Shown in pieces: positions 2,821 to 40,320 of a stretch of 64,000 nucleotides of DNA. The notes beneath the pieces were generated by a model that ran no database searches, was not told the DNA's origin, and saw only the letters and a list, made by a program, of their open reading frames with translations. Position numbers and translations under genes: made by a program. The stretch's first letter is position 1, and the number at the start of each line of letters is the position of its first letter. The stretch is from NCBI GenBank assembly GCA_027064525.1, contig JAMOPJ010000037.1:1-64000 (forward strand), in the 5' to 3' direction. Source of the stretch: Archaeoglobaceae archaeon. GTDB lineage: Archaea; Halobacteriota; Archaeoglobi; Archaeoglobales; Archaeoglobaceae.

Positions 2821-2969
2821 CGCTCCAGATGGCCATGTGATCGAGTAATATATAAACCTTCGAGGTTAATTGAGGGTTTGACAGAGCTAGGAGATTTTAG
2901 GAGGAATAAGAAGAGTTTAAGTTGGCAGGATTATTATATTTTTGAGTTTTCTTTGAGATGGGCGAGCCG

Positions 2970-3026
2970 GTGGCGATGTAACGATGTTGATGAACCTTTA
3001 AATTATATACAACGATGCGTCAACCC
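2970..3026 (+). repeat. Diverged copy of the 60-bp dispersed element
   Basis: This stretch aligns along most of its length with the element at 5550-5609, keeping GTGG, GATG, TGTTGATGAA, TTTAAAT, ATA and ACAA in the same order and spacing, but with many substitutions and about 3 bp less. It lies in a gene-free stretch (2821-3076) downstream of the ABC permease. Homology is likely but weaker than between the other two copies. Confidence 0.45.
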
Positions 3027-4806: not shown

Positions 4807-5376
4807 ATGATTGACGATAAGGATAGAACGATAATAGCAAAGCTTCAAGAGGACGGTAGAACTCCGATTGTGGATATATCGAAGGAGATCGGACTTTCGA
4901 GCATGGGTGCGAAGAAAAGAATAGATAAACTCGTAAAAGAAGGAGTTATAAAGATTAAAGCTCTCGTGAACGCTGATAAATTGGATTTGAAGCTTGCATT
5001 AATTATTATGGAGCTCGAAAGCGGTTCCGCTTTGAGGGAACTTATTAAAAAACTTGAAACCTGTCCCCGCATAATCAAATTTTTCGTCACTACTGGCGCA
5101 TACAATCTCTTTGCCTTAGTTTGGGCAGAGGATTACCACACCCTCGAAAGCATAAGTCTGGAAAGCTGTTCTTTAAGAGCACAAAAAGGAGTAAAGAGAT
5201 TCGAGTTTTATCCGATAATCGAAATCCACTACGATCCCTTTATCGATTTGAAGGTTACCGCGAAAAAGGTGTTCGAAAAACCGCCGTGCGGTGTGGATTG
5301 CCAATCCTGCGTAAGATACGAGAAAAATAAGTGCTTAGGCTGTCCAGCAACGCCCTTGTATAGGGGTAAACTGTAA
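4807..5376 (+). CDS. Lrp/AsnC-family regulator with Cys-rich C-terminal tail
   Basis: Residues 1-60 form the AsnC helix-turn-helix (DRTIIAKLQEDGRTPIVDIS, then KEIGLSSMGAKKRIDKL) and about residues 62-145 the ligand-binding RAM-like domain. The last 30 residues carry CGVDCQSC, KNKCLGC and then PATPLYRG, a pattern C-x3-C-x2-C-x7-C-x2-C like the TRASH and other small metal-binding tails appended to archaeal Lrp proteins. Metal sensing is therefore plausible. It is transcribed away from an ABC exporter, which suggests it controls efflux of a metal or toxic compound (inference). Confidence 0.82.
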   Translation: MIDDKDRTIIAKLQEDGRTPIVDISKEIGLSSMGAKKRIDKLVKEGVIKIKALVNADKLDLKLALIIMELESGSALRELIKKLETCPRIIKFFVTTGAYNLFALVWAEDYHTLESISLESCSLRAQKGVKRFEFYPIIEIHYDPFIDLKVTAKKVFEKPPCGVDCQSCVRYEKNKCLGCPATPLYRGKL

Positions 5377-5431
5377 CATCACAATATTTACGGGCTGAAA
5401 GTCCTTTTACAGTAGTTCCGAAAGTTTGCAA

Positions 5432-5534: not shown

Positions 5535-5549
5535 GTTTACACTCACCTG

Positions 5550-5609
5550 GTGGTGATGCAGCACTGTTGATGAAATTATTTAAATCATACACAATGTGAA
5601 GTCACGACC
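5550..5609 (+). repeat. 60-bp dispersed element, intergenic copy
   Basis: Sixty bases starting GTGGTGATGCAGCACTG and ending AGTCACGACC match bases 39029-39088, inside the Cmr cas10 gene, at 55 of 60 positions without gaps. Similarity stops abruptly at both ends, so this is a discrete unit. It contains a TATA-like TTATTTAAATCATA. This copy has an in-frame TGA relative to the cas10 reading frame and is not part of a gene. Confidence 0.8.
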
Positions 5610-5733: not shown

Positions 5734-5800
5734 GGGGCGCCTGTAGGCATTGGTTGTAGCGGTCCCCGCCGTCACCACTGTTATCTGTTTTTGGCGCCCC
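5734..5800 (+). ncRNA. Candidate structured RNA closed by an 8-bp GC stem
   Basis: GGGGCGCC (5734-5741) pairs perfectly with GGCGCCCC (5793-5800). Inside, UGGU...ACCA and GCGG-UCC-CCGC can form a nested stem with a symmetrical internal loop. GC-rich islands in AT-rich thermophile intergenic DNA often mark structured RNAs. A TATA-like TTTATCTATAATT (5703-5715) sits about 25 nt upstream, favouring transcription from the plus strand. No C/D box, kink-turn or canonical ACA end is evident, so no class is assigned. It directly abuts the stop codon of the convergent regulator gene, so a bidirectional terminator is the main alternative. Confidence 0.4.
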
Positions 5801-18110: not shown

Positions 18111-18120
18111 GGTGCTATTA

Positions 18121-19423
18121 ATGCAAATCAGAATCAGAACACTAACTCCAATATGGTCTGGAGATGTCAACAGACAATGCACAAGATTAAGAGAAACTTC
18201 TATAATCGGCTCTTTAAGATGGTGGTTTGAAGCACTTGTTAGAGGATTCGGCGGTTACGCTTGTGATCCTACTTCCAGTGAGAAATGCGAATATAGATAT
18301 AATACAAATGATATTTGTGCAGTTTGTGAACTATTCGGAACGACAGGTTGGGCTAAGAGATTCAAATTCGAAATTAAACAAAGTTTTCGTCAAATATATG
18401 AAGATAGCTTAGTAATTGGGGGTAGTAGTAGGAATTGGTATTATCCAAGTGGATTAATAAGCTGTAATAGCGTATTAAACATGTTAGAACAAATTTTACC
18501 ATTTGAACTAAAAGATAAAGATTCTGAAAATCCTAACCAAGAAAATGATCTAGTAAAACACATTTTCAATGTATTATTTACATTCATCTCAAATTGGGGA
18601 ATGATAGGCGGAAAAACAGCAATTGGTTATGGTGCCGTTAGATTTGAAGATGAAAGTGGTAATTCCTTAAAAGCCAGCAATGAAGATATTAAAAGGTTTT
18701 TTAAATATTTAGAAAAGAAAGAGAAACTTGGAAAAGATGCTAAAAACGCGCCAAGAATAGATGAAATGTTTTTTGCAAGGTTTAAAATTAACGAGGAATG
18801 TATAGATAAAATTATCGAAAAAATTAAAGAAAATATTCTTCGAACTCCAAACTCAATATACAAATGTAATAGAACCGAAGAAATAATAAGTGATGGAAAG
18901 AAATTTTTGGAGAGATTAATGGATTATTATGGTTTTATTCCAACGAGTGCTTTGGTTAGGAAAGAATTGAGAAAAAGGTTTAGAGAAGACTACATTAACA
19001 ACAATCCTAATACCTGTTCAAGCTGGATTCAGCAATTAAGCACAGATGCTCTAAAGGAATTGCGACATTTCATCATGGGAGAACTTGGTAGATTTTCTGC
19101 TATAAATGTTTCTCATATCTACGGGAATGGTAAAAGTTGGGAATTTAGGGTTTATGGATGGATTCCAAAGGATATAAGACAAAGACTGAATATAAACAAT
19201 ATAAAAATAAAAAGAAGCGATATTATAGATTATCTTAAGCAGATTTTTAATGATCAGCAATTCTGGCAAGCTTGTTTAGGTAGTTTCTGTTTTCTTCAAA
19301 AAGCAGAAGATAAACAAGTGATAGTAGAGTACCCAAACGATGGATGGAACTTTATCGATTTTGGGAAGCTAAATCGAGAAGAAACCAAAGAAGCTTTCAG
19401 TAAGATATTACGTGGTGGTGAAA

Positions 19424-19437
<14 letters not shown>
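18121..19437 (+). CDS. cmr1: Cmr1-like RAMP of the Csx11-type III module
   Basis: A 438-residue RAMP protein. The start IRIRTLTPIWSGDVN and TSIIGSLRWWFEALVRGFGG are the Cmr1 N-terminal signature, also seen in the second Cmr1 at 36323. A Cys set (CDPTSSEKCEYR and CAVCELFG) follows, probably binding zinc. Cmr1 binds the 3' region of crRNA or target in III-B/III-C complexes. Start at ATG 18121 with GAGGTGC upstream, 10 bp after the cas8a stop. From here to 27.1 kb the codon use is visibly more AT-rich than in the flanking I-A genes. Confidence 0.85.
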
Positions 19438-24694
<5,257 letters not shown>

Positions 24695-24708
<14 letters not shown>

Positions 24709-25756
24709 ACATGTTAGGTATTTCGCCTTAGCTTTAGATCCGATCCATGTCGGAACGGGAGGGTATAGAATTGGAAGAGTTGATAATACTATTATCCGAG
24801 AACCAGCGACGGGGATTCCAAAGATTCCAGGGACTACGATAGAGGGTGTTTGCAGAAGCTATGCGTATTTAAAAGCTAAAGAGAATGGGGAAAATGTACT
24901 CGAACAATGCGCTAAGGGTAAAGTCAAAAAAGAAGGAAATATCATAAAGGAACCATGTGGAAAGTGTAGAATATGCATAACTTTTGGATATACTCAAGAA
25001 AAGATGGCTATGCAAGCTATGGCTTTATTCTCTGATGCAAGAATTCTATTCTTTCCAGTAGCTACTATGATCGGCCCAGTTTGGGTAACTTGTCCCATGG
25101 TTTTGAAAGATGCTGAAATAAAAGAGATAGATAATCAATCTAAAGAAGTAAATGAAATTCCTGAACCAACTGCCAACACATTTATAGTTCCTGAGAATTG
25201 CAAAATTAATCCACCAGAAGGTAAACTCAATTTTGGTTGGTTGCTTTTAAATCAAGATGATAATGATACTAAGAAAACAAATATAGATAATTGGATTTAT
25301 TATGAAAATAATGAGCAAAAGAATCTAAAAGATTGTGGAATTCCGAAGGAAATACTAAGTAGGATTGTTATTGTTCCAGATGACTTATTTATAACAATTG
25401 TAAACTCAAATCTTGAAGTTAGAACTTCCGTAGCAATTGATCCAACTACTGGAGCAGTGGAAGAAGGAGCATTATTCACGTACGAAGCAATTCCGAGAGG
25501 AACAGTGTTTTGGTTCGAAGTAGTATATCAAAATCCTAAGAACTTCCCAGCACTGAAAGGTCTGAAGCTTAAGTGGAAAGAAAATGAAATAACTATTGAT
25601 GATAATGCTAAAGATAATAATCTATTTTTGTTATTAAAATCATGTGTAGAAGATGGACTGTCATTGTTCCAACATCTAGGCGTTGGAGGAATGGGTTCAA
25701 GAGGTTTTGGAAGACTGAAGGTGCTTAGTGTAGGTGATAAAAATGGTGGAAAGTAA
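24695..25756 (+). CDS. cmr4: Cmr4-like RAMP, Csx11-type III module
   Basis: A 353-residue RAMP protein starting VVYKHVRYFALALDPIHVGT. The stretch GRVDNTIIREP with Asp30 matches the Asp that cleaves target RNA every 6 nt in Cmr4 and Csm3 backbones, followed by PGTTIEGVCRSYA. A zinc-type Cys set (Cys near 72, then CGKCRIC near 88) follows. GVGGMGSRGFGRLKVL is the C-terminal RAMP glycine loop. It should form the filament of this complex and retain RNA cleavage. It overlaps csx11 by 14 bp and cmr5 by 14 bp. Confidence 0.85.
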
Positions 25757-26138
25757 TTTAGATAGAATATCCGCCCAAATTGGATTTAATATAGTTGAAT
25801 CGTTTAAACATAAGGAAGACTTTGAAAAATTAGAAACAATAGTTAATAAAGCATTGGGTATACTTATAGAGGACGGATTGTTTGCTTATGCTATATGGCT
25901 CAAAAGTAGGGGTGATAAGGAGAGAAAATACACTAAAACAATAGAAAATAAAAGCTTAGAACTATTAAAAAATAAAAATATTAATTTAACAAATAAAAAT
26001 GATTTGATGACTGCTATACTTGATGACATTTCAACCAATATTCAAAAAACACTCCTCGCAAGACAACTCCTTGAAAAAATGCTAATTTATGCAAGATATA
26101 GAGCAAAAGCTCTTCAAAAGTCAGGTGAAATGTCATGA
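25743..26138 (+). CDS. cmr5: Cmr5-like small subunit, Csx11-type III module
   Basis: A 131-residue helical protein. The C-terminal LLARQLLEKMLIYARYRAKA resembles the Cmr5 small subunit, and the EDGLFAYAIWLKSRGDKE segment likewise matches the Cmr5 pattern of a Gly-Leu helix followed by a W-x3 motif. It lies between cmr4 and the Cmr3-like gene and overlaps both. Cmr5 forms the minor filament that helps hold target RNA. Confidence 0.75.
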   Translation: MVESNLDRISAQIGFNIVESFKHKEDFEKLETIVNKALGILIEDGLFAYAIWLKSRGDKERKYTKTIENKSLELLKNKNINLTNKNDLMTAILDDISTNIQKTLLARQLLEKMLIYARYRAKALQKSGEMS

Positions 26139-27145
26139 TGTGGAACTGCTACCTTACAATTTTCAAAGCGGAATCTCCAATACATATAGGCTACAAGCAG
26201 ATTGGAATTCTCAAAACTACACGATACTTCATCATAGGCAGAGCTATGTGGGGGACTATAACTGCAAATCTCACAAGAGCTTTATTTGAAAATCCAAGTC
26301 CCAAAGATTATGAAGTTGCTGGAAATTTTGTTAGAGAATATATAAGAACAACTTACTTTTATCCTGCCATAAAGGAAGAAAACGAAATTAATGTTGGAGA
26401 CCTAACTGACTTTTATGTAAATTTAAATGGATCAAAATTTGGTGTTTTCCTACCGAGCTATATGGATAATGGATTAAAATTTGGTAAAATTTCAAAAGAG
26501 GAATTTGAACAGAGATTCATTGGTTCGTTCGTCTCTACAGCATTGGATGTCAGCACAAAAACAGCCGAAGAAGGAAGCTTGCATGAATTTGAATTTATAA
26601 AAAATAAAATTAAAATTAAGAATAAGGCTATTAATGTATACTGGATTGGATATTTGTTTATAAATATGGATACTAAAGAAGCTAAAGATAATAGTGGTAA
26701 AAAGGTCTATGATGTAATTATAAAGGAAACAAATGAGGACATAGAGGTCATATTCGCTAAAAATGAAAGATACTACAGAAGAAATAATCTAAAAAATAAT
26801 ATCTTAAATCAACTATTTGTTGGAGGAGAAAGGAATTATGGATTAGGTAAGCTAAAATTACTGGAACTAACCAAAGAAACTAATAACAAAATTTTTGGAA
26901 AATACGATGTTGAGCTAAATAAAGAACAACCCATTCTCAAAAATTTAGATATTGCTATTGCTCACGTAAAGTTGGATGGACTTGAATTAAAATTTGGAGA
27001 AATTGAACCAGTTGTAGGTTTAGAATGGTCTGATAAGGGTGCTGGACAAAAAGTTAGCAATGCAGAAATATGTGCTACTCCCGGAAGCAAACTAAAATCG
27101 GGTAATTTTATTTTATGTGATTACGGTATGCTCAGGAGGATATAA
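26135..27145 (+). CDS. Cmr3/Cas5-like RAMP, Csx11-type III module
   Basis: A 336-residue RAMP protein. It opens NCYLTIFKAESPIHIGYKQI and has TTRYFIIGRAMWGTITANLT, comparable to the Cas5-group start in which a G-x-hydrophobic helix follows the first strand. GGERNYGLGKLKLLEL is the RAMP glycine loop. By elimination (Cmr1, 4, 5 and 6 already assigned) it is the Cmr3-equivalent that grips the crRNA 5' handle. It ends 2 bp before the second MNT gene. Confidence 0.6.
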   Translation: MMWNCYLTIFKAESPIHIGYKQIGILKTTRYFIIGRAMWGTITANLTRALFENPSPKDYEVAGNFVREYIRTTYFYPAIKEENEINVGDLTDFYVNLNGSKFGVFLPSYMDNGLKFGKISKEEFEQRFIGSFVSTALDVSTKTAEEGSLHEFEFIKNKIKIKNKAINVYWIGYLFINMDTKEAKDNSGKKVYDVIIKETNEDIEVIFAKNERYYRRNNLKNNILNQLFVGGERNYGLGKLKLLELTKETNNKIFGKYDVELNKEQPILKNLDIAIAHVKLDGLELKFGEIEPVVGLEWSDKGAGQKVSNAEICATPGSKLKSGNFILCDYGMLRRI

Positions 27146-27147
27146 TA

Positions 27148-27648
27148 ATGAGGACATTCACAAAAACACACAAAGAATACATCAAGAAGTTGATGGAAAG
27201 AATCAAAGAATATTACGATAACAACTTAGTTTCAATTGTAATCTTTGGATCTTATGCAAAAGAACAAAACAAGACAAACTCCGATCTCGACATACTTATA
27301 GTTTTAGAAAGGTGTAAAAAATCAAGACAAAAAAGATTACAGGAGTTTGTTGAAAAGATTGAAATGCCATTAGAATCCTTAGCGATGAAATTACTCGACG
27401 AAGGAATATACATGGACATAACACCAGTTATCCTCAGTAAAGATGAAGCCAGATACTTCAATCCGCTGTATCTAGACATGGTGGAACATAAAATAATTAT
27501 CTTTGATAAAGATAATTTTATACAATCAATTCTTGAAAGAGTGAAAGAACTCATAAAATCTTGGGGTAGCTACAAAGAATATGTAAACGGTCACGAAGTT
27601 TGGGTTGTCAGGAAGGGTAAGCCGATAGGGGTGGTAAAACTTGGATAG
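27148..27648 (+). CDS. Nucleotidyltransferase (MNT), pair 2
   Basis: A 166-residue protein with FGSYAKEQNKTNSDLDILI (GS-x10-DxD). It has a longer C-terminal part than minimal MNTs, ending in EVWVVRKGKPIGVVKLG. AGGAGG sits just before the ATG. It forms a pair with the overlapping HEPN gene downstream and lies between the last type III gene and cas3'. An activity of nucleotide transfer to its partner is inferred from the family. Confidence 0.82.
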   Translation: MRTFTKTHKEYIKKLMERIKEYYDNNLVSIVIFGSYAKEQNKTNSDLDILIVLERCKKSRQKRLQEFVEKIEMPLESLAMKLLDEGIYMDITPVILSKDEARYFNPLYLDMVEHKIIIFDKDNFIQSILERVKELIKSWGSYKEYVNGHEVWVVRKGKPIGVVKLG

Positions 27649-28045
27649 ACTCGCAATTGATTACTTGAAAAGAGCAAAGATAAGGTTAGAAGTGCTCGAA
27701 GTCCTATATGAAAAGGGAGACTATCCTGATGTTGTTAGAGAAGCTCAAGAAGTCGTAGAACTGGCTTTAAAAGCAGTTTTAAGACTAATAGGTGTTGAAC
27801 TCCCAGTTGATGATAGTGATAAGATATTGGGCAAATACGAACATTTACTTCCAGAAGAACTCAGACAAAACCTTAAGAAAATAGCTACTATATCCAAAAG
27901 ACTTAGAAAAGAAAGAGAGCTCAGTTTTTACGGTGCTGAGGATTTTATCCCGTTAGAGGAATACACAGCCGAGGAGGCTATGCAGGCTATCAACGATGCC
28001 AAGTTCGTAGTAGATACGATAACAAGAGCCTTCAAGGTGTGCTAA
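27641..28045 (+). CDS. HEPN-domain protein, pair 2
   Basis: A 134-residue helical protein. It starts at TTG 27641 (DRLAIDYLKRAKIRLEVLEV) after GGGGTGG, and then has VVREAQEVVELALKAVLRLI, the central HEPN helix. KRLRKERELSFYGAEDFIP near the end carries Arg and acidic residues but no clear R-x4-6-H motif. It overlaps the MNT gene by 8 bp and ends 1 bp before cas3', so it is read as part of the same operon. Confidence 0.75.
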   Translation: MDRLAIDYLKRAKIRLEVLEVLYEKGDYPDVVREAQEVVELALKAVLRLIGVELPVDDSDKILGKYEHLLPEELRQNLKKIATISKRLRKERELSFYGAEDFIPLEEYTAEEAMQAINDAKFVVDTITRAFKVC

Positions 28046-28046
28046 C

Positions 28047-29795
28047 ATGCTCACAACATATTTCAGTGAGGTTATTGAAACGTGGTTCGGAGGAAAAAAC
28101 AAGAGACCGTTCGTAGAGTATGCTATCAAGAAGCTCGAAGAAAATTGGAGCGATAAAAACGTATTCGTGATAGAAGCTCCGACTGGCTACGGAAAATCGA
28201 CAATCTCAGCTACTGTAGCTCTATACTCTATCAACGAAGAGCTGAAGTCGATAATAGCATTTCCTCTGAGAACCCTATTGGAAGATCAGTATAACAAGTT
28301 CAAAAGTCTTGTAAGCGAAGATATACTTGGAAAGAGGTACATGCACAACCCAGATTCACGGTATCTGATCAAACCGATAACCTTAACAACTGTAGACACA
28401 CTGTCGATGACCTTATTCGGAATTCCGCCGGAAGACATGGATAAGATCGTTAGATCTTGGGACGGGACTTCAACTGGAAGTTTAGGACACTACCTCTTCT
28501 CTTGGGCTTCCGTTGCTCTGTCAAATATAGTGCTGGATGAAGTTCACCTACTAGCGGACTCGACGAAGTCTTTAAGCTTTTTAATTGCTCTGATGAGAAT
28601 CTGCATAGATTTCGATCAAAGACTGATTTTGATGAGTGCAACCATTCCAGATTCGTTGAAAGATGAAATTCGGGAATATGTCCCAGACGTTGAGTTCATA
28701 GAGTTTAAACAAGACATAGATCCAGACTTCTGCAAAGAGAGAGCGAATAAAAGCTACGATATCATTTTAGAAGAAGTTTCCAACGAGCAGGATAAATACG
28801 AACTGATATTAAAATGGATTGATGAAAATGAGAATTTTTCCAAAGTTATAGTGGTGTTCAACACGATCGCAGATGCGATTAACTTCTACAACCTCGTTAA
28901 AGATAAGAATGCCGTATTGCTTCATTCGAGGTTTTCCGAAAAGGATAGGGAGATGAAACTGCAAAAACTGCAAGAAATCAGAGATAAAGACGAATACGTC
29001 ATAGTATCTACTCAGGTGATAGAAGCTGGAGTGGACATCTCATCAAACCTATTCATTACGGAAATAGCTCCAGCGAACTCTCTAATTCAGAGATTAGGCA
29101 GATTTTTGAGATATGATGAAAGAGTTGGCAGGATTATTATCTGGTATGAAGGTAAAGATGGCAAGATTAAAGCGGAAAGAAACAGATACAAAGTTTACGA
29201 TAGTGTATTAACCCAAAAAACGTTAGATTGGCTGATGGAAAATTCTGACATAAGAAATGGTAAAACGATCGTAAATCTAAACGTCCATCTACCCGAAGCT
29301 GAATCTAAGAAGGGGTTCAAGGAGTTACTTAACTACGTTTACAGTAAAGACTGTTTTAGAGTCGATAAGAGATCGATAAAAGATTTCGAGAGGATATTTC
29401 TGCACTTAGAAGATGCATCGCTGAAGGCAGTTGAAACCTTCTTTAAGATGGAAGGGAGCTTTGTTAGAGATGGCTTAATAGTTCCGATAACATCGAATGA
29501 TGCCCTTGAGAAACTACAACGTTTAGATCTGTCCAAATTCATAAGAACGTATGTAGTGCCCATATCTTTTGAAACGTTTGAGAGTAAGGCGGAGCGTGTG
29601 ATCGGTGTTATGGCTGAGGAAAACGATGAAGTTGGATACAGAGAAGTTGACGATTATCTAAGAGACAAGCTCAAGGACAGATACTTGAAACCACGACAAG
29701 TTCTAAGATATATCATTAGAAACAACGTTATAGCTTTTGTCGTCGATGCTGAATACGATAACGAATTGGGATTGAGGTTTGATTGGCGTGATTAA
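28047..29795 (+). CDS. cas3: Cas3' helicase, type I-A
   Basis: A 582-residue superfamily 2 helicase. Walker A is APTGYGKST at residues 44-52, motif II is DEVH at 164-167, motif III LMSATIP follows, and the second RecA domain has VVFNTIADA, VSTQVIEAGVDIS and IQRLGRFLR. Cas3' unwinds the target DNA once Cascade is bound. It carries no HD domain, which is encoded by the next gene, as is usual in type I-A. GGTGTGC precedes the ATG. Confidence 0.92.
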   Translation: MLTTYFSEVIETWFGGKNKRPFVEYAIKKLEENWSDKNVFVIEAPTGYGKSTISATVALYSINEELKSIIAFPLRTLLEDQYNKFKSLVSEDILGKRYMHNPDSRYLIKPITLTTVDTLSMTLFGIPPEDMDKIVRSWDGTSTGSLGHYLFSWASVALSNIVLDEVHLLADSTKSLSFLIALMRICIDFDQRLILMSATIPDSLKDEIREYVPDVEFIEFKQDIDPDFCKERANKSYDIILEEVSNEQDKYELILKWIDENENFSKVIVVFNTIADAINFYNLVKDKNAVLLHSRFSEKDREMKLQKLQEIRDKDEYVIVSTQVIEAGVDISSNLFITEIAPANSLIQRLGRFLRYDERVGRIIIWYEGKDGKIKAERNRYKVYDSVLTQKTLDWLMENSDIRNGKTIVNLNVHLPEAESKKGFKELLNYVYSKDCFRVDKRSIKDFERIFLHLEDASLKAVETFFKMEGSFVRDGLIVPITSNDALEKLQRLDLSKFIRTYVVPISFETFESKAERVIGVMAEENDEVGYREVDDYLRDKLKDRYLKPRQVLRYIIRNNVIAFVVDAEYDNELGLRFDWRD

Positions 29796-36322: not shown

Positions 36323-37342
36323 ATGTTTAAAGCTGAATTTGAACTCGAAGCGATAACTCCGATTTTTATGCGAGGTGCAGATCAAAGCAAAGCGGAGATT
36401 AGAGCTTCTTCGATAAAGGGCTTGATGAGGTGGTGGTTCAGGGCTTTGGCTGGAAATTACTTCGGTGACGACATCGCTGGATTGAGAAGAGCCGAGGAAT
36501 ACGTTTTTGGAAGCACAGGGCAGAGGAGCAGGGTTATCGTTGAAGTTGAAGCTCCAGAACCTGAAGAATTTAATTTTAGTGATTTTAGGGATCTATCCTA
36601 CCTGTGGTTCTCGATAAAATTAAGCAGACCCCGATATTATTACTCAGCCGGAATAAGATTTAAGATAAAGCTGAAAGGTTCAGATTACAAAGCATATGTA
36701 GCTTCGTTGGTTTCACTCTGGGCACTCGCATGTTTGGGTGGTATCGGTTTTAGGAGTAGAAGAGGTGCTGGTAGCGTTAGATTTGTTGAAGGAGATTTTG
36801 ACGAATTTGAAAGACGAGGTATTGCATGCACTTTCACGTCGTATAGGGATCTAACTAACTCAATAAACAATGCAATAAATGCAATTGGAGAGGCTTTTAA
36901 CTTGAGGAGGCTAAAGATACATCCTCAGACATACCCGATTTTAAGCTCAGAAACTGCCTGTGTTGGTCTCTGGAATCCCAGAACGGGGAATCCAGTTTTA
37001 GCACTTAAAAGATTTCAAAATGAGTATACAAATTTCAGAAGAAAAGAAATTGAGAAAAAAAGTAGAATTGTATTTGGATTGCCCATAAAGCTTAGTGGTA
37101 AAGGAGTAGGAGACATTAGAGATAAGTTACGTAAGTTAGGTCAATGTAGAAGGGGCTCACCCATGTTCGTTGGACTTATAAATATTGGAAAATTTTTACA
37201 TGTTAAAATAATTAAGTTTTATACAGATCCCTATCATCCTGACAGTTATATAAATGATATTGTGGACTGGTTAATTTTATCGAATTTTGATGAGTCATTA
37301 AATGAAAGAACTGTATTTGGATCGTTGGAGGTGTTCAAATGA
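36323..37342 (+). CDS. cmr1: Cmr1, type III-B
   Basis: A 339-residue RAMP protein: FKAEFELEAITPIFMRGADQ and ASSIKGLMRWWFRALAGNYF are the Cmr1 hallmark, with GGIGFRSRRGAGSVRFV as the RAMP glycine loop. It is the first gene of the Cmr operon; a TATA-like GTTTTAAAAAG lies about 28 nt before the ATG. It overlaps cas10 by 4 bp. It is shorter than the Cmr1 at 18121 and lacks that protein's Cys insert. Confidence 0.93.
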   Translation: MFKAEFELEAITPIFMRGADQSKAEIRASSIKGLMRWWFRALAGNYFGDDIAGLRRAEEYVFGSTGQRSRVIVEVEAPEPEEFNFSDFRDLSYLWFSIKLSRPRYYYSAGIRFKIKLKGSDYKAYVASLVSLWALACLGGIGFRSRRGAGSVRFVEGDFDEFERRGIACTFTSYRDLTNSINNAINAIGEAFNLRRLKIHPQTYPILSSETACVGLWNPRTGNPVLALKRFQNEYTNFRRKEIEKKSRIVFGLPIKLSGKGVGDIRDKLRKLGQCRRGSPMFVGLINIGKFLHVKIIKFYTDPYHPDSYINDIVDWLILSNFDESLNERTVFGSLEVFK

Positions 37343-40320
37343 TTAATTGGAATGAAAAACTTATAGCATTTCTCCACGATCCACCAGATAAAGCTCTGAA
37401 AATATTGAACCACGAAGAAAGAGCAGAAAATTTACTAAGTAACATTGAATTGAGCTGGAAGAAGATTAAAGCCGATGTAATTTCCTCCTCACTTCAAAGG
37501 ATAGTGTTTGACTCGAATGGAAAAGAGCCTTCATCAGATTTTTATGCGAAATCGAGCGGGACATACGTGCATGTAGGATATCCTGTTTTAAGGCATCCGA
37601 TAACAGGCTGTAAAAAAGAGTATGGGAATCTTATCAGGTTTTGCGACTACCTAAGAAGAACTTACGGTTACTCAAAGCTTGACGAATTCATAAATGATGT
37701 TTTAAACGCTGAGATAGATTGTCTGAAAGAACTAGGGGGTAGTGTAGGAAAGAAAGGATACTTCAGAATCTGGAATTACTACAAAGAGACTTTAAGGAAA
37801 AGACTGGCTGAGATGCTAAAGCAGAAGTGGTCTGGCTTCATCAAAGCCACTTTCGGTGAAAATGAGAGTATTTACAATTCACTTGCAGAGGAAGCAGTCA
37901 ACTTGCCAGCAGATACCCGTTGTCCAGATCATACGATATGGGATCATCTCGACGCATCTTCGGCTATATATGGTGCGATTAGCGGTGCTAAACCAGCTCT
38001 TCTGATGTTCAAAATATCGCCAGTCCAAGATTTCATTAAAAATGCGAGGAAGGAGAAGGATCTATGGGCTGGAAGTCATTTACTCAGCTTTCTGACGTTT
38101 CAGGCGATTAAGGTTGTGGTGGATGAGTTTGGGCCGGATGCAATAGTCTTTCCACATTTGAGAGGTCAGCCATTCTTCGATAAAGAATTTGAAATCTACT
38201 TTGATAAAATTCCAGAAAAAGCCAAAAATGGAAATAAATCAAAAGAAAAGCTGTATATTGCCAACATACCTAATAAATTCCTCGCAATCGTTGGTGCTGA
38301 TAAAGTCGGCAGTATTAGAAACAAAATAAAGGGAGTTATCGACAAGACACTTGAGGAGCTATTGGATTTCTCGCTAAATGAATCATCGTTAAGCAGTAAA
38401 ATAAATACCTATATGAAAAATTATTATCTCAAATTACTTCAGAACTACTTTAACATAACCGTATGTGCAATTTCGGCAGATTTGAACAGCCTAATCAAAA
38501 TTATAGACAAGTTACCAGATAAGATTAAGGAAAAATACGAGAATTGGTTATCTTTGCTCGAAGAATCTGGATACGAAAGACAAATTTTCGATCTTTATTC
38601 CCTGATGTTCGAGCTTATCGAAGAAACGGTTGCGATTGAATCGAGGAAGTTTGTCAAGTTAGAAGGATTGGGTAAAGAAAAATGCACCCTCTGCGGTGAA
38701 CTTGAAATCATTGGAAATAAAGACACATGGAAGGGTTTGAACAGAGCAACTTTTAAAGAAAACGAGAGATTGTGTCCCGTATGTCTCGTTAAGAGAATTT
38801 ATCCCAAATGGATCGGCGATAAGTGGAAGATCAAAGTTGGATTTGAATCGGTTTCCGAAGTCGCTTTAAGGAAGAAACTGGATGAGGATTTGAGAAAGAA
38901 ACTGGAAGATGAGAATGTAACATTTTATGATGTTATTAATGACAATAATCTTGCAAGAAAATTGGGTTGTTACAAGTCTCTTAAGTCATTTTTCGAAAAT
39001 GTGAGCACGATTTTGGATCATCTACAAAGTGGTGATGCAACACTGTTGATGGGATTATTTAAATCATACACAATGTGGAGTCTCGACCATCTACAATTAC
39101 CAACCAATTATGAACTTATATATAAAGAAAATCTAACAAATATTGGAGCCATTTCAAAAACGCTGGGGATTAATGAAGAAAGAATTGAGGGAATTCTGAA
39201 TGTCGATAAGTATCTTGAAAATGCGAGAAACGCCGTAAAGGATATTGAAAGATTGATCGGTGAATTTCCAAAATACTACGCGATTCTGATGATGGACGGA
39301 GATGACATGGGTAAAATGCTGATAGGAGAGGAGATGAAACCCGTCAAGAATTATCTTCATCCCGGAGTTTTGGAATACATTCCTCCTAAAGCAAAGATGA
39401 AAGTCGAAAACACAAGAAGGCTGATTACCCCAGCAACCCACTCAGCAATAAGCAGGGCTCTCGCACACTTTTCGATAGACATCGTTCCAGACATAGTCGA
39501 AAATTACAGAGGAGAACTAATTTATGCGGGAGGAGACGACGTTTTAGCTTTGCTTCCGGTAGATTCAGCTTTGGCATGTGCTTATGAAATCCAAAAGAAG
39601 TTCGGAGGGGAATGGGATGGATGGAACGTTCTCCCAGCCAAGACGATGAGTGCTGGAATTTTGATTGTCCACTACAAACATCCCCTATACGATGCACTCG
39701 ATAAAGCAAGAGAGCTTGAGAAGAAGGCTAAGGAACTCGGTAGAAATGCTGTTGCGATCGGCTATCTCGCGAGAAGTGGTAGCTACGATGAAGTAGTATT
39801 CAACTGGAGTTTGGTATGCGAAATAGGAGAGATCGTCGAACTTATAAAGAACTCGAAGAGAGACGTGAAGCCGAACCTTTCGAGGAGGATAATCTACCAC
39901 GTAGTTCAGGAGATAGAGAGCCTGCCGAGCGATGAAAACGCTTTAAGGGAATATCTGAAATTCGAGTTTTCGAGGCATTACAGCGGTGAGGGTGAGAAGG
40001 TAAAGGTGTTGGCTGAAAGAGTCTTAAATATGGCTAAGAACGTCAGAGTCACGCTTACGAAAGACGATTTTGAAGAGCTGGAATTAGATATTAAGAGGAC
40101 CCAACTCGTAAGGGCTAATTCGAAGGTTAACGGATTGATAAAGAATGAAAAGCTGTCGGTGGGCAAGATCTACGAAGAGCTTAAGGACGTTTTGAACGTT
40201 GATCGTTGCGAATTCTACAAAAAACTATACGGTTTGATCTTGAAGAAACAGATTAAAAGTTCGTTCATCCTTTTGAAGATCCTCGTCAATTGCGATGCGG
40301 AGTTGAGGTGTCAGCCATGA
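37339..40320 (+). CDS. cas10: Cas10 (Cmr2), type III-B, with intact GGDD cyclase motif
   Basis: A 993-residue protein. The N-terminus has LIAFLHDPPDKALKI (degenerate HD region of Cmr2). A zinc finger, CTLCGELEI then CPVCLV, lies near residues 450-490. MMDGDDMGKML near 655 is part of the first palm, and YAGGDDVLALLP (GGDD at residues 731-734) is the catalytic palm that makes cyclic oligoadenylate. Residues 564-586 correspond to a 69-bp insertion with a 9-bp target duplication (39028-39096). The gene overlaps cmr1 and cmr3 by 4 bp each. Confidence 0.93.
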   Translation: MINWNEKLIAFLHDPPDKALKILNHEERAENLLSNIELSWKKIKADVISSSLQRIVFDSNGKEPSSDFYAKSSGTYVHVGYPVLRHPITGCKKEYGNLIRFCDYLRRTYGYSKLDEFINDVLNAEIDCLKELGGSVGKKGYFRIWNYYKETLRKRLAEMLKQKWSGFIKATFGENESIYNSLAEEAVNLPADTRCPDHTIWDHLDASSAIYGAISGAKPALLMFKISPVQDFIKNARKEKDLWAGSHLLSFLTFQAIKVVVDEFGPDAIVFPHLRGQPFFDKEFEIYFDKIPEKAKNGNKSKEKLYIANIPNKFLAIVGADKVGSIRNKIKGVIDKTLEELLDFSLNESSLSSKINTYMKNYYLKLLQNYFNITVCAISADLNSLIKIIDKLPDKIKEKYENWLSLLEESGYERQIFDLYSLMFELIEETVAIESRKFVKLEGLGKEKCTLCGELEIIGNKDTWKGLNRATFKENERLCPVCLVKRIYPKWIGDKWKIKVGFESVSEVALRKKLDEDLRKKLEDENVTFYDVINDNNLARKLGCYKSLKSFFENVSTILDHLQSGDATLLMGLFKSYTMWSLDHLQLPTNYELIYKENLTNIGAISKTLGINEERIEGILNVDKYLENARNAVKDIERLIGEFPKYYAILMMDGDDMGKMLIGEEMKPVKNYLHPGVLEYIPPKAKMKVENTRRLITPATHSAISRALAHFSIDIVPDIVENYRGELIYAGGDDVLALLPVDSALACAYEIQKKFGGEWDGWNVLPAKTMSAGILIVHYKHPLYDALDKARELEKKAKELGRNAVAIGYLARSGSYDEVVFNWSLVCEIGEIVELIKNSKRDVKPNLSRRIIYHVVQEIESLPSDENALREYLKFEFSRHYSGEGEKVKVLAERVLNMAKNVRVTLTKDDFEELELDIKRTQLVRANSKVNGLIKNEKLSVGKIYEELKDVLNVDRCEFYKKLYGLILKKQIKSSFILLKILVNCDAELRCQP
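39028..39087 (+). repeat. 60-bp dispersed element inside cas10
   Basis: Bases 39029-39088 match the intergenic stretch 5550-5609 at 55 of 60 positions. The element is flanked by a perfect 9-bp direct repeat CATCTACAA (39019-39027 and 39088-39096). Element plus duplication is 69 bp, i.e. 23 codons, so the cas10 frame stays open; the protein gains residues 564-586 and repeats LDHLQ on both sides. This is the structure left by insertion of a very small mobile element. Confidence 0.75.

Follow-up and report, generated by a model that had tools for sequence, protein, structure and literature searches.

A probable IS1-type MITE of 61 bp in frame within the Cmr cas10 gene of an Archaeoglobaceae archaeon

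The cas10 gene of a type III-B (Cmr) operon in an Archaeoglobaceae archaeon contains a 61-bp unit that is, in its structure, a miniature inverted-repeat transposable element (MITE), and it is very probable that this MITE consists of two back-to-back ends, was mobilised by an IS1-family transposase and was inserted into cas10 in frame. The features that bear on this reading, in the whole stretch of 64,000 nucleotides that was analysed (hereafter the window), are as follows.

37339-40320, + strand: cas10/cmr2 of the type III-B (Cmr) operon, 993 aa, host of the insertion (TIGR02577, E=1.5e-110; HD (HDPPDK) and GGDD motifs)
39020-39027, + strand: target site duplication ATCTACAA, left copy
39028-39088, + strand: 61-bp IS1-type MITE, in frame in cas10 (35-copy alignment; CM match of 89.8 bits; 23-residue gap in a relative)
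39028-39051, + strand: left terminal inverted repeat AGTGGTGATGCAACACTGTTGATG, compared with the IS1 end
39065-39088, - strand: right terminal inverted repeat, with the reverse complement GGTCGAGACTCCACATTGTGTATG here and the consensus GGTCGTGACTCCACATTG
39089-39096, + strand: target site duplication ATCTACAA, right copy, encoding the final residues of the 23-residue insert
5549-5609, + strand: second, intergenic MITE copy, with no recognisable target duplication
2969-3025, + strand: third, degraded MITE copy (CM 35.1 bits, E=1.5e-8), adjoining IS6-like remnants

Boundaries and architecture of the element

In a BLAST comparison, positions 39029-39088 of the window are identical with positions 5550-5609 at 55 of 60 bases (92%) without gaps, and from this match the initial annotation had described an element of 60 bp. 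The match stands and the size does not: a multiple alignment of 35 copies places the element at 39028-39088 and its partner copy at 5549-5609, giving a length of 61 bp. The first base of the cas10 copy is A, and most other copies carry G there. Similarly, the perfect direct repeat of 9 bp that had been taken for the target duplication, CATCTACAA, is indeed present at both 39019-39027 and 39088-39096, but the duplication itself measures 8 bp (ATCTACAA, at 39020-39027 and 39089-39096); the extra ninth base is the terminal C of the element on the right and a C by chance on the left. With up to 3 mismatches allowed, a 23-base core of the element occurs in the window at these two sites only, and at none in 100 dinucleotide shuffles. 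The match of the two window copies, together with the repeat, is not due to chance.

The consensus ends (GGTGGTGATGCAACACTG on the left and GGTCGTGACTCCACATTG on the right) form inverted repeats that are imperfect across 18-24 bp. The spacer between them is about 13 bp in units of 58-61 bp, with almost no internal sequence. The MITE holds no transposase gene, and its 61 bp fall within the MITE range of 50-500 bp.

Insertion into cas10 and its protein consequence

The operon companions of cas10 are cmr1, cmr3, a Csx1-type CARF gene, cmr4, cmr5 and cmr6, and the best PDB matches of the protein are Cmr2 chains, plus one chain titled GGDEF domain-containing protein. The gain in cas10 amounts to 61 + 8 = 69 bp, that is, 23 codons encoding residues 564-586 (SGDATLLMGLFKSYTMWSLDHLQ), which confirms the in-frame gain of 23 codons claimed initially; the insert duplicates the DHLQ encoded by the target. 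Because element and duplication together make 69 bp, any insertion of the element keeps the phase. Only one of its six frames is open (the first forward frame, as judged by eye), and it is the frame used in cas10.

An alignment of Cas10 orthologs around the insert, as the initial annotation had proposed, shows the closest Cas10 found to be without exactly these 23 residues. This relative (L079), from another genus of the family, aligns over the full length except for the 23 insert positions, which are gapped in both BLASTP and MAFFT, at an identity of 47% overall and 56% in the best segment (BLASTP). Other Cas10 relatives differ in length around the insertion site, and this variation suggests that the region tolerates change. 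No Cas10 match was found in the four genomes of the same genus, and a Cas10 scan of genome contigs returned distant bacterial relatives only. In an AlphaFold2 model of Cas10 (12-sequence alignment, mean pLDDT 80.5, pTM 0.86), residues 565-588 fall below a pLDDT of 50 directly after the helix 545-563, a low value that is partly expected since the insert residues have no homologous alignment columns. On this model, the 23-residue insert is probably disordered and forms a loop that separates the zinc-binding region from the second palm domain.

Neither the reading frame nor the rest of the operon is broken, and Cas10 keeps its HD and GGDD motifs, which argues against inactivation; Cas10 with the insert may, judging from its sequence, still work. 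It is unlikely that the insert has been adopted, either by altering Cas10 such that the Cmr system is tuned or weakened, or by giving the gene an internal promoter via TTATTTAAATC. Insertions of IS elements, IS1 among them, into cas genes are known to disable CRISPR (PMC10359306), and the element does have an AT-rich, TATA-like core; however, the insert sits in a region of variable length among relatives, and the intact frame, motifs and operon speak against a loss of function.

Window positions 18112-29795 hold a second cas-type cluster. Its products are proteins of the RAMP superfamily, a Cas3-like helicase and a large protein that matches Cas3-HD weakly.

Copies of the element and its candidate mobiliser

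The initial annotation had also suggested a search of the whole genome for the 60-mer. The host genome (1.89 Mb in 53 contigs) carries about 51 MITE copies (55 CM matches, of which three IS1 ends and one reverse duplicate were discounted), many of them with target duplications of 8 bp, and further copies occur in relatives; by BLAST, 41 matches were found in the host. Model R1 behaves as a sequence profile because its RNAalifold structure is trivial (only 4 pairs). Forty-four copies were extracted, and 33 of them measure 60-61 bp (61 bp in 21 copies, 60 bp in 12). Exact 8-bp flanking repeats are present at 23 of the 44 aligned copies, and repeats with at most one mismatch at 27, counts that are slightly favoured by the scoring of copy boundaries partly on the flank repeat, although the alignment supports the same ends. 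The chance expectation for an exact repeat is 4^-8 per copy, far below one in total. The duplications are AT-rich, with 27% GC vs. about 42% in the flanks. Moreover, five 61-bp copies at five sites are identical, which points to recent movement of the MITE, and further identical sets of 2, 2 and 3 copies occupy different sites. The many copies with duplicated flanks and the gap in the relative's Cas10 support the earlier proposal that a tiny non-autonomous element transposed into cas10. MITE matches at E ≤ 1e-5 were found in 8 of 295 genomes of the phylum, all in the family; the element is present in all four same-genus genomes and in a few other family members, in fewer and more diverged copies.

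Most of the 44 copies are intergenic, and the cas10 copy alone sits inside a long open frame. A second in-frame copy (C18:77264; L009 1300-1850) was observed in a short frame that resembles a vapC-type PIN gene with a possible vapB adjoining, an assignment made by eye for a gene of which a scanned 60-residue piece has no Pfam match. This gene also carries an upstream premature TAG and is, for this reason, probably a pseudogene. Another copy (C45:36840; L050 2001-2061) breaks the first few codons of a 297-codon open frame, and the gene may be disrupted or may use a start further downstream.

Several other repeats were observed in the window. Degraded fragments at 2320-2395 and 2892-2957 are 73-77% like a broken IS6-like element at C45 (L077:1213-1888), and the degraded MITE at 2969-3025 lies directly beside one of them. 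An imperfect inverted repeat at 5360-5425 (GGGGTAAACTGTAA ... TTTACAGTAGTTCC) surrounds GGGCTGAAAGTCC, and no second copy of it was found in the loci examined. The motif TACAGTAGTTCCG (5410-5422) is also present upstream of a MITE copy in genome G003 (L127), and the two places, having no wider similarity, were rejected as an orthologous site. A possible structured RNA or long hairpin at 5734-5800 (GGGGCGCC ... GGCGCCCC; fold z-score -1.8) has no Rfam match in locus L001.

A direct search of the host for an IS1 transposase gave no match, since the host contigs break off within the element, and the host IS1 was first noticed through weak CM matches at contig starts. Three host contigs start with the same 119-127 bp, in which the IS1 end is GGTGGTGTTATGATACTGTTGATG, and the opposite end, GGTAATGCTACAGTAATG, was found at five host contig ends. 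The flanks pair as 8-bp duplications (GATGCCTT for contigs C12/C51 and CTACTTTT for C10/C38), and the visible pieces, read by eye, encode an intact zinc-ribbon start and transposase C-terminus. Fragmented assemblies hide multi-copy IS1 elements in this manner, leaving them visible only as contig ends. Full-length relatives of about 758 bp are present as eight copies in genome G014 and one in G001, and they match PF03400 (DDE_Tnp_IS1) at E=1.7e-18 for a G014 copy and E=8.6e-12 for the G001 copy. The G014 copies are flanked by 8-bp duplications too (e.g., GCATTTTG and CTCATCTC); several of them are split into two ORFs that meet at seven consecutive A, and others have a single longer frame.

The left end of the MITE matches the resident IS1 end at 21 of 24 bases for subfamily B and at 19 of 24 for the subfamily A consensus, and the best of 200,000 shuffles in the control for the 21/24 match reached 19. 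On the right, agreement of the MITE with the ends of the resident IS1 is only moderate (13-14 of 24 bases), the best value being 17/24 with the G001 IS1. A comparison of copy ends with IS ends, which had been recommended at the outset, points to an IS1-family element as the related autonomous element, with 21/24 for the left end of MITE subfamily B. From these sequences, the MITE was likely mobilised by the transposase of an IS1-family element that is resident in the host and seen there only at contig ends, or it may descend from a sister IS1 instead of the resident one. Against mobilisation by IS1, G014 has eight IS1 copies and no MITE match, and G002-G004 carry MITEs and have no IS1 transposase match.

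We propose that the MITE is little beyond two imperfect IS1-type ends of 18-24 bp placed back to back. The resident IS1 (about 760 bp, from its relatives), which likewise makes target duplications of 8 bp, would supply the transposase in trans. A single copy would have been inserted into cas10 at ATCTACAA, adding 69 bp, and Cas10 would have gained its 23 residues, 564-586, because the insertion has the sole orientation and phase that is free of stops.

That the MITE is moved by some other transposase, e.g., that of the IS6-like elements of the family, and resembles IS1 by coincidence, seems quite improbable. IS6 elements too make 8-bp duplications, and a decayed IS6-like element of 676 bp, with ends starting GGTAGAGA, resides in the same genome. 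The IS6-like transposase was the first suspected partner of the MITE and was rejected on its ends, which agree with those of the MITE at no more than 6-8 of 24 bases, whereas IS1 ends match far better. Moreover, the sole IS6-like copy found in the host is broken, and none of the IS6-type loci examined from relatives has a pair of MITE-like ends.

There is very little likelihood that the repeat acts as a small functional RNA or a regulatory hairpin and is not a mobile element. The RNA of some copies forms a hairpin (two have a z of about -2.5), but other copies, the cas10 copy included, fold no better than shuffles, L001 and L011 have no Rfam match, and transposition is indicated by the target duplications and by the identical copies found at separate sites. 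The chance that the 23 residues belonged to Cas10 ancestrally, with the intergenic stretch being a fragment of cas10, is negligible, for this idea is favoured by the open frame through the element and nothing more, and is refuted by about 51 copies elsewhere, many with duplications of their own, and by the best relative's Cas10, which is without the 23 residues that in the host include a duplicated DHLQ.

Minimal size and comparison with known systems

With its duplication as a marker, the IS1-type MITE in cas10 is a clear example of a mobile element adding sequence to an archaeal CRISPR effector that looks intact and is not destroyed. It is close to the minimum of a DDE transposon, which makes it a good substrate for learning how short transposons can get. 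As a tentative and rather doubtful extension, two abutting DDE ends (58-61 bp with a spacer of about 13 bp) that are still amplifying might be synapsed without the DNA looping available to larger elements, and the element might serve as a natural generator of 23-residue inserts. If true, synapsis could take place, for example, via the paired ends of two copies or on DNA that is locally melted at high temperature.

Prokaryotic MITEs are 50-500 bp in length (review PMC10969869), and the archaeal MITEs SM3A and SMN1 in Sulfolobus are 164 bp and 320 bp (PMC3718332). The 61-bp unit shares with prokaryotic MITEs the inverted-repeat ends, the target duplication, the many copies, the lack of a transposase gene and a host genome that also contains a related IS. 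Unlike the others, it has almost no internal sequence and carries IS1-type ends, and it is unusually small, close to the lower limit of size for this known kind. Our limited search of the literature found no described MITE of Archaeoglobaceae or of archaeal IS1 origin, and one may exist.

In the IS1 family, the DDE_Tnp_IS1 transposase of the relatives is preceded by a zinc-ribbon/HTH part, and the ends start with GGT. Both the IS1 elements and the MITE have AT-rich duplications of 8 bp, whereas the MITE is without a transposase gene and its right end is only moderately similar to the IS1 ends observed. In E. coli, IS1 makes target duplications of 8 or 9 bp (PMC10359306).

The palindromic elements of Rickettsia (RPEs), as summarised in the review, lie in frame in protein genes and are tolerated (PMC10969869, citing Ogata 2000, 2002). 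The two systems share a short palindromic mobile repeat, in-frame insertion and tolerance, which makes the Rickettsia comparison of the initial annotation fair as an analogy; here the keeping of the frame follows from length (61 + 8 = 69). RPEs are given as about 150 bp long, with nearly half of those of R. conorii in genes, whereas the 61-bp MITE is found in genes in 1 clear case of 44 (2 with the stop-bearing vapC-like gene). Insertions of IS elements into cas genes inactivate the gene (PMC10359306), whereas the cas10 MITE, also of IS1 type, keeps the frame. What is particular to the cas10 MITE is its size, its IS1 type, its archaeal host and the arithmetic of 61 + 8 = 69.
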